A stretch of 33,642 nucleotides of DNA from an uncultured Synergistales bacterium. Its GTDB lineage: Bacteria; Synergistota; Synergistia; Synergistales; Aminobacteriaceae. Within the stretch, counting starts at the first letter, position 1. Each line of letters starts with the position of its first letter. A program made the position numbers and the translations under genes. Location: NCBI GenBank assembly GCA_905233525.1, contig CAJOEW010000008.1:27071-60712 (forward strand), given 5' to 3'. Shown in pieces: positions 22,134 to 25,400 of this stretch. The notes beneath the pieces were generated by a model that did no database searches, was not told the DNA's origin, and worked only from the letters and a program-made list of their open reading frames with translations.

Positions 22134-22209
22134 TGGCGGTCCCAGCGGGATTCGAACCCGCGCCGCAGCCTTGAAAGGGCTGTGTCCTGGGCCTCTAGAC
22201 GATGGGACC
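22134..22209 (-). tRNA. tRNA-Glu (anticodon TTC)
   Basis: 76 nt with encoded CCA. The acceptor GGTCCCA pairs with TGGGACC, discriminator G. Anticodon loop CTTTCAA gives TTC. The T-arm has GCGGGTTCGAATCCCGC. It follows tRNA-Lys by 7 nt on the same transcript. Confidence 0.97.
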
Positions 22210-22216
22210 CATTTGT

Positions 22217-22292
22217 TGGTGAATCGCGGGGGACTTGAACCCCCGACACCCGGATTAAAAGTCCGGTGCTCTACCGACTGAGCTAGCGATTC
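22217..22292 (-). tRNA. tRNA-Lys (anticodon TTT)
   Basis: 76 nt with encoded CCA. The acceptor GAATCGC pairs with GCGATTC, discriminator A. D-arm GCTCAGTCGGTAGAGC; anticodon loop CTTTTAA gives TTT; T-arm GGGGGTTCAAGTCCCCC. First gene of the tRNA pair. Confidence 0.98.
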
Positions 22293-22336: not shown

Positions 22337-22503
22337 ATGTTTTCGATTTTTATAACACGCATTTAAAAATTTTATGCTGCAAATTTATTATTACGGCTTG
22401 TATTTTTCATACGCAATCAAGCAAAATAAACCATGACCGCTAAAAAATTTTCCAGTAAAATTTCGCTCGTTTGTTTTTATTTTTGATGGGAGATGATCTT
22501 TTA

Positions 22504-23466
22504 TTGGTTACCAAATTTTTTTTAACGAGTGTAATTTTTTTATTAACTTTTAATTGCTGTGCTGACGCTTCTGAATTGGCTTATCAAGTTGATGACGAAG
22601 ACGCGCCGGCAGTTTTTTTCACACGCAGTATAACACCTGACGGACTCGAACGCGTTTATAAAGCATTACGTTGGGAAGCTGACGGACGTACAGCCGTTAA
22701 GATATCTACAGGTGAACCGCCTGCGAGCAATTATTTGAGACCGGCTTTAATTCGTGATTTCGTTAAACGCCTTAAAGGTACAATAATTGAATGTAATACA
22801 GCTTACAACGGATCAAGAGCTGAGACGGCCATGCATTTACAAGTCGCTAAAGATCATGGCTTCACGGAATTTGCAAACGTTGATATTATGGACTCCGAAG
22901 GCGATATTGAATTACCTGTAACGCATGGAACACATTTAACAGGAAATTTTGTCGGTAAGAATTTCACAAATTATAACTCGTTCGTAATATTAAGCCATTT
23001 CAAAGGGCACGCTATGGCAGGATTTGGAGGAGCCGTTAAAAATACTTCGATAGGTATTGCTTCACGCCGCGGCAAATGCAGAATACACACAGGCGGCAAA
23101 AGCGACACAAGCCCATGGGGAGGAACGCAAAACGCATTTTTAGAATCAATGGCTGAAGCTGCGCGGTCAGTGTCTGATTATTTGGAACATGGCCGCAGAA
23201 TTGTTTATATTAACGTTATGAACCGCCTTAGCATTGATTGCGATTGTAACGGACATCCGGCTGAACCTGATATTCATGATATAGGCATTTTAAGTTCAAA
23301 AGATCCTGTAGCGTTAGATCAGGCCTGTGTAGATTTAATAAATGCTGCGTCCGGTAATCACTCATTTGTAAAACGTATGCGCCAATTAAATGCCGTGCAT
23401 GTTTTAGAACACGCCGAAAATATGAAATTAGGCAGCAGGCATTACAGATTGATTTATATCGATTAA
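22504..23466 (+). CDS. Exported DUF362 family protein
   Basis: 320 residues, DUF362 core (an 'Fe-S centre' family of unknown function). Recognised by FVILSHFKGHAMAGFGGA, VKNTSIGIASRRGK, and DCDCNGHPAEPDIHDIGILS followed by KDPVALDQACVDLIN. Unlike many members it has no C-terminal ferredoxin domain. It has a signal peptide (MVTKFFLTSVIFLLTF..CADA). I prefer a TTG start at 22504 because GGGAG lies 11 nt upstream and the signal peptide is then clean; alternatives are ATG 22486 or TTG 22471, neither with a ribosome site. First of three genes for exported proteins. Whether it holds a metal cluster is not shown. Confidence 0.8.
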   Translation: MVTKFFLTSVIFLLTFNCCADASELAYQVDDEDAPAVFFTRSITPDGLERVYKALRWEADGRTAVKISTGEPPASNYLRPALIRDFVKRLKGTIIECNTAYNGSRAETAMHLQVAKDHGFTEFANVDIMDSEGDIELPVTHGTHLTGNFVGKNFTNYNSFVILSHFKGHAMAGFGGAVKNTSIGIASRRGKCRIHTGGKSDTSPWGGTQNAFLESMAEAARSVSDYLEHGRRIVYINVMNRLSIDCDCNGHPAEPDIHDIGILSSKDPVALDQACVDLINAASGNHSFVKRMRQLNAVHVLEHAENMKLGSRHYRLIYID

Positions 23467-23503
23467 AAAAATATTTTTTAAAATTTTCAGGAGGTAACTT
23501 TTT

Positions 23504-24079
23504 ATGAGAGTCTTATTAGGAATTTTATTAGCGTTGTTATTTGTCAGAGCAGCTGATGCAAAATCATTAGTCGTTGTATTTTCGCGCGCTGATGAAAATT
23601 ATCAAGTCGGCAATATTTCAGAAGGCAATACAATGAAATTAGCGAAGGTCATTGCAGAAAAAACAGGTTCAGATTTATTTGAGATTAAGCCGTACGAAAA
23701 ATACCCGGCTGATTATAAAAAGTGTACAGAAGTTGCTCAGGAAGAATTAAGAATTAACGCCCGTCCTGCAATTTTGGAAGATAAAAGCCCTGAAGAATAT
23801 GACACGATATTTTTAGGTTATCCAATTTGGTGGGGAGAAATGCCGATGTGCGTATATACATATCTTGAGCGCCATGATTTCAACGGCAAAAAAATATATC
23901 CGTTCGCTACACATGAAGGCAGCGGCATGGGACGAACTGAAAGCTCTTTAAAATTGGCACTGCCTGGAGCTGAAATACATCGCGGCATAGCTGTCAGAGG
24001 ATCTGAAGCGCAAAATTTAACATCTCGCACGGTGAAATCTTTAGAGTCGTGGCTTAAATCAGCAGGCTTTTTAGATTAA
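23504..24079 (+). CDS. Exported flavodoxin-like protein
   Basis: 191 residues: signal peptide MRVLLGILLALLFVRAADA, then a flavodoxin domain of the Flavodoxin_4 type. FMN-phosphate region VVVFSRADENYQVGNISEGN, KTGSDLFEIKPYEKYP, then DTIFLGYPIWWGEMPMC (isoalloxazine side) and FATHEGSGMGRTESSL. Flavodoxins are normally cytosolic FMN electron carriers; this one would act outside the cytoplasm. Strong AGGAGG ribosome site upstream. It lies 37 nt after the DUF362 gene and 33 nt before the DUF3798 gene. Confidence 0.88.
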   Translation: MRVLLGILLALLFVRAADAKSLVVVFSRADENYQVGNISEGNTMKLAKVIAEKTGSDLFEIKPYEKYPADYKKCTEVAQEELRINARPAILEDKSPEEYDTIFLGYPIWWGEMPMCVYTYLERHDFNGKKIYPFATHEGSGMGRTESSLKLALPGAEIHRGIAVRGSEAQNLTSRTVKSLESWLKSAGFLD

Positions 24080-24112
24080 GTCTTATAAAAATTTTTCAGG
24101 AGCCTTTTTATT

Positions 24113-25336
24113 TTGCGTTTAAGATTTTTTGTTATAACTGTTTTAATTAGTCTTGTTACGTCTGCTGCATTCGGTGAGCCTTTATATAATCGTGATAATC
24201 CTGCGCCGTTTCATATCGGAATAATAACAGGTACAGTCTCACAATCTGAAGACGAATTGCGCGGAGCTGAAATGCTTATGAAAATTTATGGCGAATCTTC
24301 TCAAGGCGGAATGATTACTCATGTTACATATCCTGATAATTTTCCGTCTGAACAAGAAACTACGATAGGGCATATAATCGGACTCGCTGATGATCCTTTA
24401 ATGAAAGCTATAGTTTTCACTCAGGCTATATTAGGCGTAACAGAAGGCTTCAGGCGTGTGAAAGAAAAGCGCAGCGATATTTTATTACTGGCAGGAGAAC
24501 CTCAAGAGGATTTAATTATGATAAGCGAAGTTGCTGACATATGCGTTCATACGGATTATATTACAAGAGGCTATACAATTCCGTTAGGAGCTAAAAAAAT
24601 TGGAGCTGATACGCTTGTGCATATATCATTCCCTCGTCATATGAGTGTCGAGCCTATGAGCGTAATGCGTTCGATTATGGAAAAATCCTGTAAAGATATC
24701 GGACTGAAATTTGTAATCGAAACAACGCCCGATCCTACTGGTGACGTAGGAATGGCAGGAGCACAGCAGTATGTTCTTGAAAATGTCCCTGTGTGGCTTG
24801 ATAAATACGGTAAGAATGCTGCATTTTTCTGTACAAGCGACGGAGAGATCGAACCGTTGATAAAACGCATAACAGAATTAGGAGGCTATTTTATTGAATC
24901 CGATGTACCATCGCCGTTAATGGGATATCCTGGAGCCTTGGGCATTGATTTAAAAAATCAAAAAGGCGATTGGCAGGCGATATTAAAAAAAATTGAAGCC
25001 AGTGTCATAAATGCAGGCGGTAAAAACAGATTAGGCACATGGGCTTTTTCATTCGGATATACGACTGTAGCGGCATTGGCTGAATACGCAAAAAATTATA
25101 TCGAAGGCAAATTTAATTACGCGCCAGGTTCAGAGCAGTTATTAAATAATATTGTCGAAATGTATAATAAATTTTGTCCTGGCTCGAAATGGAGAGCAGG
25201 CTATTTAATAGATTCTATGACAGGCGAAAAAAATCCTAAATATATTTTATTATTGCAGGATACTTATATATTTGGCAGAGGTTATTTAGGACTGACTGAT
25301 ATTAAATTTCCTGAAAAATATTTATTGCAGCGTTAA
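24113..25336 (+). CDS. Exported DUF3798 protein (periplasmic-binding-protein-like)
   Basis: 407 residues with signal peptide MRLRFFVITVLISLVTSAAFG, then a body that resembles type 1 periplasmic binding proteins: HIGIITGTVSQSEDELRGAE, a repeated alpha/beta pattern, and KNAAFFCTSDGEIEPLIKRI. DUF3798 is known mainly from Synergistota and some Fusobacteria/Firmicutes; its ligand is unknown. It starts at TTG with CAGGAG 10 nt upstream, and no ATG fits the signal peptide. Last gene of the exported cassette. No ABC permease lies nearby, so a transport role is not supported by context. Confidence 0.82.
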   Translation: MRLRFFVITVLISLVTSAAFGEPLYNRDNPAPFHIGIITGTVSQSEDELRGAEMLMKIYGESSQGGMITHVTYPDNFPSEQETTIGHIIGLADDPLMKAIVFTQAILGVTEGFRRVKEKRSDILLLAGEPQEDLIMISEVADICVHTDYITRGYTIPLGAKKIGADTLVHISFPRHMSVEPMSVMRSIMEKSCKDIGLKFVIETTPDPTGDVGMAGAQQYVLENVPVWLDKYGKNAAFFCTSDGEIEPLIKRITELGGYFIESDVPSPLMGYPGALGIDLKNQKGDWQAILKKIEASVINAGGKNRLGTWAFSFGYTTVAALAEYAKNYIEGKFNYAPGSEQLLNNIVEMYNKFCPGSKWRAGYLIDSMTGEKNPKYILLLQDTYIFGRGYLGLTDIKFPEKYLLQR

Positions 25337-25365
25337 CGAGTTATAAAACTTGTAAGAAAAATTTT

Positions 25366-25400
25366 AAGGGAGTGCTTTTATGCTGGCATTCCCTTATTTT
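25366..25400 (+). terminator. Rho-independent terminator after the DUF3798 gene
   Basis: AAGGGAGTGC pairs with GCATTCCCTT (10 bp, one G-T) around a 10-nt loop, followed by ATTTTTATG. It sits between two convergent genes; the minus-strand tail (AAAATTTTT) is poorer but may also serve copA. Confidence 0.85.

Follow-up and report, generated by a model that had tools for sequence, protein, structure and literature searches.

A probable periplasmic redox enzyme composed of an exported DUF362 protein and an exported flavodoxin in an uncultured Synergistales bacterium

The window analyzed here, a stretch of 33,642 nucleotides from an uncultured Synergistales bacterium (GenBank assembly GCA_905233525.1, contig CAJOEW010000008.1), contains three consecutive genes for an exported DUF362 protein, an exported Flavodoxin_4 protein and a DUF3798 protein. 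The DUF362 and Flavodoxin_4 proteins probably work together as a periplasmic redox enzyme of two proteins, from which the DUF3798 protein is separate. This proposal is based on the export segments of the proteins, the adjacency of their genes, domain fusions, a predicted LarA fold and conserved residues. Comparison of gene neighbourhoods suggests that DUF362 and the flavodoxin are the real unit, and that their association is recurrent. The DUF362 gene (22504-23466, + strand) has a TTG start behind GGGAG and encodes 320 amino acid residues; its longest mechanical open reading frame (ORF) begins at 22471, and the start at 22504 was chosen. The Flavodoxin_4 gene (23504-24079, + strand, ATG start, 191 residues) follows after a gap of 37 nt, and the DUF3798 gene (24113-25336, + strand, TTG start) follows after a gap of 33 nt. 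All three proteins match their Pfam families far above the cut-off (DUF362, PF04015, 153.5 bits; Flavodoxin_4, PF12682, 97.9 bits; DUF3798, PF12683, 388.7 bits). Each has a short hydrophobic signal-peptide-like N-terminus, with putative cleavage after MVTKFFLTSVIFLLTFNCCADA and before SEL in DUF362, after MRVLLGILLALLFVRAADA and before KSL in Flavodoxin_4, and after MRLRFFVITVLISLVTSAAFG and before EPL in DUF3798. The export call is based on the hydrophobic core and on conservation of the N-terminus among orthologs, and both agree with the signal peptides that a sequence-only reading of this DNA, made without database searches, had assigned to all three proteins.

The adjacent DUF362 and flavodoxin genes are found in three genomes of the genus: the source genome (G000), which is a 1.64-Mb draft with a completeness of 97.6%, its closest relative (G036) and G033. 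The pair of G036 is 82-83% identical to the window pair and that of G033 is 67-71% identical, with CMD and SDR genes also present at the G033 locus. Orthologs of the window flavodoxin are found across the genus with identities of 54-83% and with signal peptides; outside the three genomes with the pair they are often located near copA, which is likewise the downstream neighbour in the window. The genus has a separate, genus-wide exported DUF362 protein, represented on contig C20 of the source genome, which is 60% identical to the window copy and adjoins a PF03773 permease. A phylogenetic analysis of 70 sequences unites the DUF362 sequences of the window, G036 and G033 in one clade (100/100). 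The C20 copy groups with named Synergistales/Synergistaceae sequences, so that membership of the organism in Synergistota is most likely. Some deep branches of this tree are weak. The position of the clade among Bacillota sequences, apart from the genus-wide copy, points to acquisition of the window-type DUF362 gene from a gut Bacillota-like donor.

When 84,980 genomes were scanned, at least 580 relatives of this DUF362 protein were detected; the best 80 loci were analyzed, and the family counts rest on these loci. The family is distributed in Bacillota, Synergistota, Spirochaetota, Chloroflexota, Pseudomonadota and one metagenome-assembled genome (MAG) labelled planctomycete. An N-terminal hydrophobic segment is present in 74 of 81 DUF362 ORFs, and a lipobox in 46. 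The ferredoxin motif CxxCxxCxxxC is not detected in any of 93 exported-type DUF362 ORFs, and the window protein has no ferredoxin domain. Neighbours were counted within two genes at 72 loci, with random genes of the same loci as the expectation, and Flavodoxin_4 is found at 17 of these loci (8.7 expected). Flavodoxin_4 and DUF362 are fused in a single protein at five loci of gut Bacillota. The fused domains are preceded by a lipobox in two of these proteins (L172, L233), by three SLH repeats in two others (L179, L187) and by a Cu_amine_oxidN1 domain in the fifth (L236). The SLH and lipobox anchors place the fusion proteins outside the membrane. L184 is a sixth candidate, in which the flavodoxin is only partial. 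These fusions, together with the adjacency in G036, G033 and Bacillota loci, indicate that the pairing of an exported flavodoxin with a ferredoxin-less DUF362 protein, to which the sequence-only reading had drawn attention, is a real association.

At most loci a PF03773 permease is located within two genes of DUF362 (47 of the 72 loci; about 10 expected). The DUF362 and permease genes are directly adjacent in 45 pairs, 24 of which overlap, and are likely to be translationally coupled, because the median gap in these pairs is -8 nt. DUF4405 is not enriched near DUF362 (3 of 72 loci; 2.0 expected). DUF362 is also fused to DUF4405 in one protein (L242) and to Cyclophil_like2 in two others (L195, L243). 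An ECF-type substrate-binding membrane protein (PF12822; for example L169:8892-9452) is encoded near DUF362 at 10 of the 72 loci (2.5 expected), and could supply a vitamin-type cofactor. Genes for small, uncharacterised membrane proteins of about 120 and 105 residues recur in Bacillota directly after DUF362 and often before the permease (L195:11204-11563, L223:8996-9684, L240:8972-9694 and L236). In a Chloroflexi MAG, one DUF362 protein (L219:7920-11159) is extended at its C-terminus by about 740 residues.

The window DUF362 protein is predicted to have a divergent LarA fold. Its AlphaFold2 model, obtained with 58 sequences, has a pLDDT of 92.6 and a pTM of 0.89. When this model was compared with the Protein Data Bank (PDB) by Foldseek, 19 matches were obtained at E ≤ 1e-3. 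Each of these is LarA, a nickel-pincer protein resembling LarA or the epimerase 4nar, which belongs to the LarA superfamily (PMC7583248). The best LarA match has an E value of 4e-7. The fold is considered to be shared but divergent, because the TM-scores of the 19 matches range from 0.38 to 0.47. Searches of the PDB with the DUF362 sequence gave nothing useful, and the link to LarA came only from the structure search. Residues H165, K167, H169, K179, H195 and D245-C246-D247 are invariant in the window protein and 58 relatives. The spacing of H169, K179 and H195 (H-x9-K-x15-H) is shared by 92 of 93 exported sequences and is the same as that of H174, K184 and H200 in L. plantarum LarA (PMC7583248). 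LarA of three genus members has these residues at the same numbers. In LarA, R75, K184 and H200 bind the cofactor, K184 as its tether and H200 as a ligand of nickel, and D72, H108, H174 and K298 are responsible for catalysis (PMC7583248). H169, K179 and H195 are aligned to their LarA counterparts by hhalign, but at a non-significant E value; no counterparts of R75 and H108 are seen in this non-significant alignment (E 0.12), and K298 lies outside it. The exported DUF362 proteins resemble the LarA superfamily (DUF2088; nickel-pincer racemases/epimerases; PMC7583248, PMC11770544) in predicted fold, in residue spacing and in membership of one Pfam clan, CL0471 (PMC11770544), but differ from it in that the profile similarity is non-significant and counterparts of R75 and H108 are not seen, in being exported and in being coupled to a flavodoxin and a permease. 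They share with the cytoplasmic DUF362 proteins, some of which have a ferredoxin domain, the Pfam family and the H-x9-K motif followed by a histidine. In two cytoplasmic proteins of the source genome, encoded on contigs C38 and C22, this motif is H-x9-K-x14-H, with x14 instead of x15, and the C38 protein has ferredoxin motifs. The exported type differs in having no ferredoxin motif and in being paired or fused with a flavodoxin.

The window Flavodoxin_4 protein matches the flavoproteins 3klb and 4j8p in phmmer searches with E values of about 1e-21, and is predicted to be an FMN-binding electron carrier. The ApbE flavinylation motif, which would lie in the strand 1-helix 1 loop, was not detected in this protein by a regular-expression search, and covalent flavinylation of the protein was not retained as a candidate on the basis of this simple pattern search. 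Clustering of the genes flanking the window pair did not reveal a DUF4405 relative among them; DUF4405 is present in the loci of some relatives. An exported protein in which a formylglycine-generating enzyme-like (FGE-sulfatase) domain is fused to Flavodoxin_4 is encoded on contig C10 of the source genome (L154:4864-6228) beside an exported CMD protein, and such fusions are also present in other genus members (L157, L159). In several genomes of the genus, LarE genes are located beside or near Flavodoxin_4 genes, at L136:544-1895 (G009 C84), L141, G032:C39:30878-32100 and G018:C61:271-1481, and the LarE gene of G009 overlaps the exported flavodoxin gene; the flavodoxin perhaps reduces LarE.

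In the proposed mechanism, the cleft of DUF362 would hold a metal or a metal-containing cofactor, and DUF362 would act by hydride or electron chemistry on a small substrate that probably resembles a hydroxy acid. Electrons would be taken or supplied by the FMN of the flavodoxin, the direction of this flow being likewise presumed. Ferredoxins and flavodoxins are well known to stand in for one another. The flavodoxin may thus play, outside the membrane, the role that a built-in ferredoxin domain would play in cytoplasmic DUF362 proteins such as that of C38. In most species the PF03773 permease probably moves the substrate or product, and the window copy has no adjacent permease. The DUF3798 protein would feed an importer encoded on another contig, separately from the pair.

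Several observations weigh against this proposal. Flavodoxin is only modestly enriched near DUF362, by a factor of about two, and the neighbour at most of these loci is the permease rather than a flavodoxin. The DUF362-flavodoxin pair is present in only 3 of 43 genus genomes, and in other genomes of the genus the exported ortholog of this flavodoxin is often encoded beside CbiA and ThiT genes. The TM-score of the model to LarA is only 0.46, and the comparison of the DUF362 and LarA profiles is non-significant (hhalign E 0.12). In the AlphaFold model of a flavodoxin-DUF362 fusion, the packing of the domains is uncertain (pTM 0.66).

Comparison with its relatives indicates that the window DUF3798 protein belongs, as a displaced binding protein, to a split ATP-binding cassette (ABC) importer of the BPD_transp_2 type, and not to the redox pair. 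DUF3798 is present in 53 of 61 genomes searched, which are the window's own genome and 60 relatives. In nearly all genus relatives, and in many relatives of the order, its gene heads an importer operon. The genes that follow it encode an ABC ATPase containing two nucleotide-binding domains, a pair of BPD_transp_2 permeases and, in many cases, a small membrane protein of the DUF6672 family. Genes for the ATPase and permeases are not found beside DUF3798 in the window; they are located on contig C22 of the source genome (L160:5846-9595), in an operon with no gene for a binding protein or for DUF6672, and the permeases are 67-68% identical to their genus counterparts. In G036, the importer is also detached (L161, contig C2), and the lone DUF3798 gene (L144) is located apart from the DUF362-flavodoxin pair (L124). 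The assignment to a split importer is made because DUF3798 is encoded by a single gene in the source genome, the C22 importer has no binding protein, G036 is likewise split and the window protein retains 80 of 90 near-invariant columns of this solute-binding protein family, of which 3qi7 is a solved structural relative. The window protein is a full-length member of the family of DUF3798 binding proteins that work with BPD_transp_2 importers, but differs from the others in that its importer is encoded on another contig without a DUF6672 gene. It would therefore be a putative nutrient-binding protein that came to lie downstream of the pair in the window species. A decaying orphan DUF3798 is not supported, since the conserved columns are kept and the importer exists. 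The ligand-binding function proposed for it in the sequence-only reading is upheld by the operons of relatives, and the statement that no transporter is nearby is correct for the window but misleading for the genome.

The same reading had regarded the three genes as one cassette. The ORFs, the Pfam matches and an intrinsic-terminator-like stem-loop with a T-tail (25365-25396, + strand, 12-pair stem) bear out its description of three co-directional genes for exported proteins with gaps of 33-37 nt and a terminator. This stem is the strongest of four terminator-like matches, a number that is not above that in shuffled sequences of the region. The upstream border of the unit is formed by divergent genes for tRNA-Glu and tRNA-Lys (22134-22292, - strand; ARAGORN), and downstream of DUF3798 lies a convergent gene for a heavy-metal P-type ATPase. 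Co-transcription of DUF3798 with the pair is likely in the window species, because they are on the same strand with a gap of 33 nt and one terminator. The same features favour a three-protein module, in which DUF3798 would sense a ligand or deliver it to the DUF362-flavodoxin pair. Such a module is highly unlikely and has been rejected, however, because the gene for DUF3798 heads the importer operon in relatives, lies apart from the pair in G036 and encodes the only family candidate for the binding protein of the C22 importer. The cassette is thus not conserved as a unit. The neighbourhood comparison proposed by the earlier reading showed co-occurrence of DUF362 and flavodoxin elsewhere, but in 40 relative loci DUF3798 does not adjoin DUF362 or an exported flavodoxin, except at a distant locus with flavodoxins nearby (L041). 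The three genes may also adjoin one another by chance in a genome that is small and rearranged, without a functional link even between DUF362 and flavodoxin here. The locus is indeed a patchwork, in which the flavodoxin is the ortholog found near copA in the genus, DUF362 groups with Bacillota and DUF3798 has moved in. This explanation is rather improbable, in view of the adjacency in G036 and G033 and the five fusions in Bacillota.

Two other explanations concern the partner of DUF362. The PF03773 permease may be the primary partner. DUF362 would then act outside the membrane on a metal(loid) or thiol-bound substrate that the permease transports, and the flavodoxin would supply reductant only in some species. 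The adjacent and overlapping pairs, the 47 loci and the genus-wide C20 ortholog with its permease favour this arrangement, as does the name of PF03773, which is derived from the ArsP organoarsenical permease. It is nonetheless unlikely: the DUF362 copies of the window, G036 and G033 have no adjacent permease, and ars genes were not noticed beside DUF362, although no systematic search for them was made. It is also possible, but improbable, that exported DUF362, like LarA, is a binder of the nickel-pincer nucleotide (NPN) and accounts for one of the missing NPN proteins in genomes with larB, larC and larE but without larA. About 24% of genomes have the NPN pathway (9% plus 15%; PMC11796402); about 15% have it without LarA, and the other protein partners of the cofactor are unknown (PMC11796402). 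The source genome encodes LarB, LarC and LarE (sites C9:6577, C14:21379 and C21:21602), and a genome search for LarA gave no Lar_N match. Exported DUF362 is therefore an attractive candidate client of this pathway, as its predicted fold and H174/K184/H200 spacing would also suggest. In two Bacillota loci, larB is located between DUF362 and the PF03773 permease (L198:3170-3922, L240:9789-10535). LarC is present in 31 of 50 other genomes carrying exported DUF362, as compared with about 24% of genomes at large (binomial p 1e-8; not taxonomy-matched). It is not matched in the remaining 19, and incomplete assemblies alone can hardly account for this 38%, although the completeness of the assemblies is not established. 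A strict requirement of exported DUF362 for NPN made in the same cell is weakened by these 19 genomes. In addition, NPN is made in the cytoplasm, whereas DUF362 with a Sec- or lipoprotein-type N-terminus would be exported unfolded; R75 and H108 could not be traced in the (non-significant) alignment; and any of the four other DUF362 proteins of the source genome could be the client instead. NPN use is kept as a rival rather than a conclusion because of the 19 genomes and the Sec-type export. A broader version, in which DUF362 proteins in general are non-LarA users of NPN that act as redox enzymes, passing electrons to ferredoxin in the cytoplasm or to the exported flavodoxin instead of returning the hydride in the manner of LarA, is quite doubtful. 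The two-protein redox enzyme of DUF362 and flavodoxin is preferred.

The open-licence literature searched on DUF362, DUF3798, DUF6672 and periplasmic flavodoxins yielded no functional account of this module, and no description of the DUF362-flavodoxin(-permease) module or its LarA fold was found in it; a prior description elsewhere is possible. The suggestion in the sequence-only reading of an undescribed periplasmic module therefore holds for the pair within that literature, but not for the exported flavodoxin itself, since extracytosolic Flavodoxin_4 has been described (PMC11334425). The Flavodoxin_4/DUF4405/ApbE systems of that report likewise have an exported Flavodoxin_4 carrier outside the membrane, and DUF4405 cytochromes are encoded at some of the loci studied here, one being fused to DUF362 (L242). 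They differ in that a simple pattern search revealed no ApbE-type motif in the window flavodoxin, and DUF362 is not mentioned in PMC11334425. DUF362-CBM9-dockerin proteins from gut cellulose enrichments (PMC5742341) are also extracellular multi-domain gut proteins with DUF362; in the available parts of that report they are a domain curiosity with carbohydrate-binding modules, and no flavodoxin, permease or fold is noted.

If DUF362 and the flavodoxin act together as proposed, the module brings a predicted enzyme, so far undescribed, into the range of flavin redox systems that gut anaerobes have outside the cytosol. The exported family with its predicted LarA fold and its flavodoxin or ferredoxin modules also provides a concrete candidate class for the partners of NPN. 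DUF362, a widespread family of unknown function, thereby gains a predicted fold and a partner.

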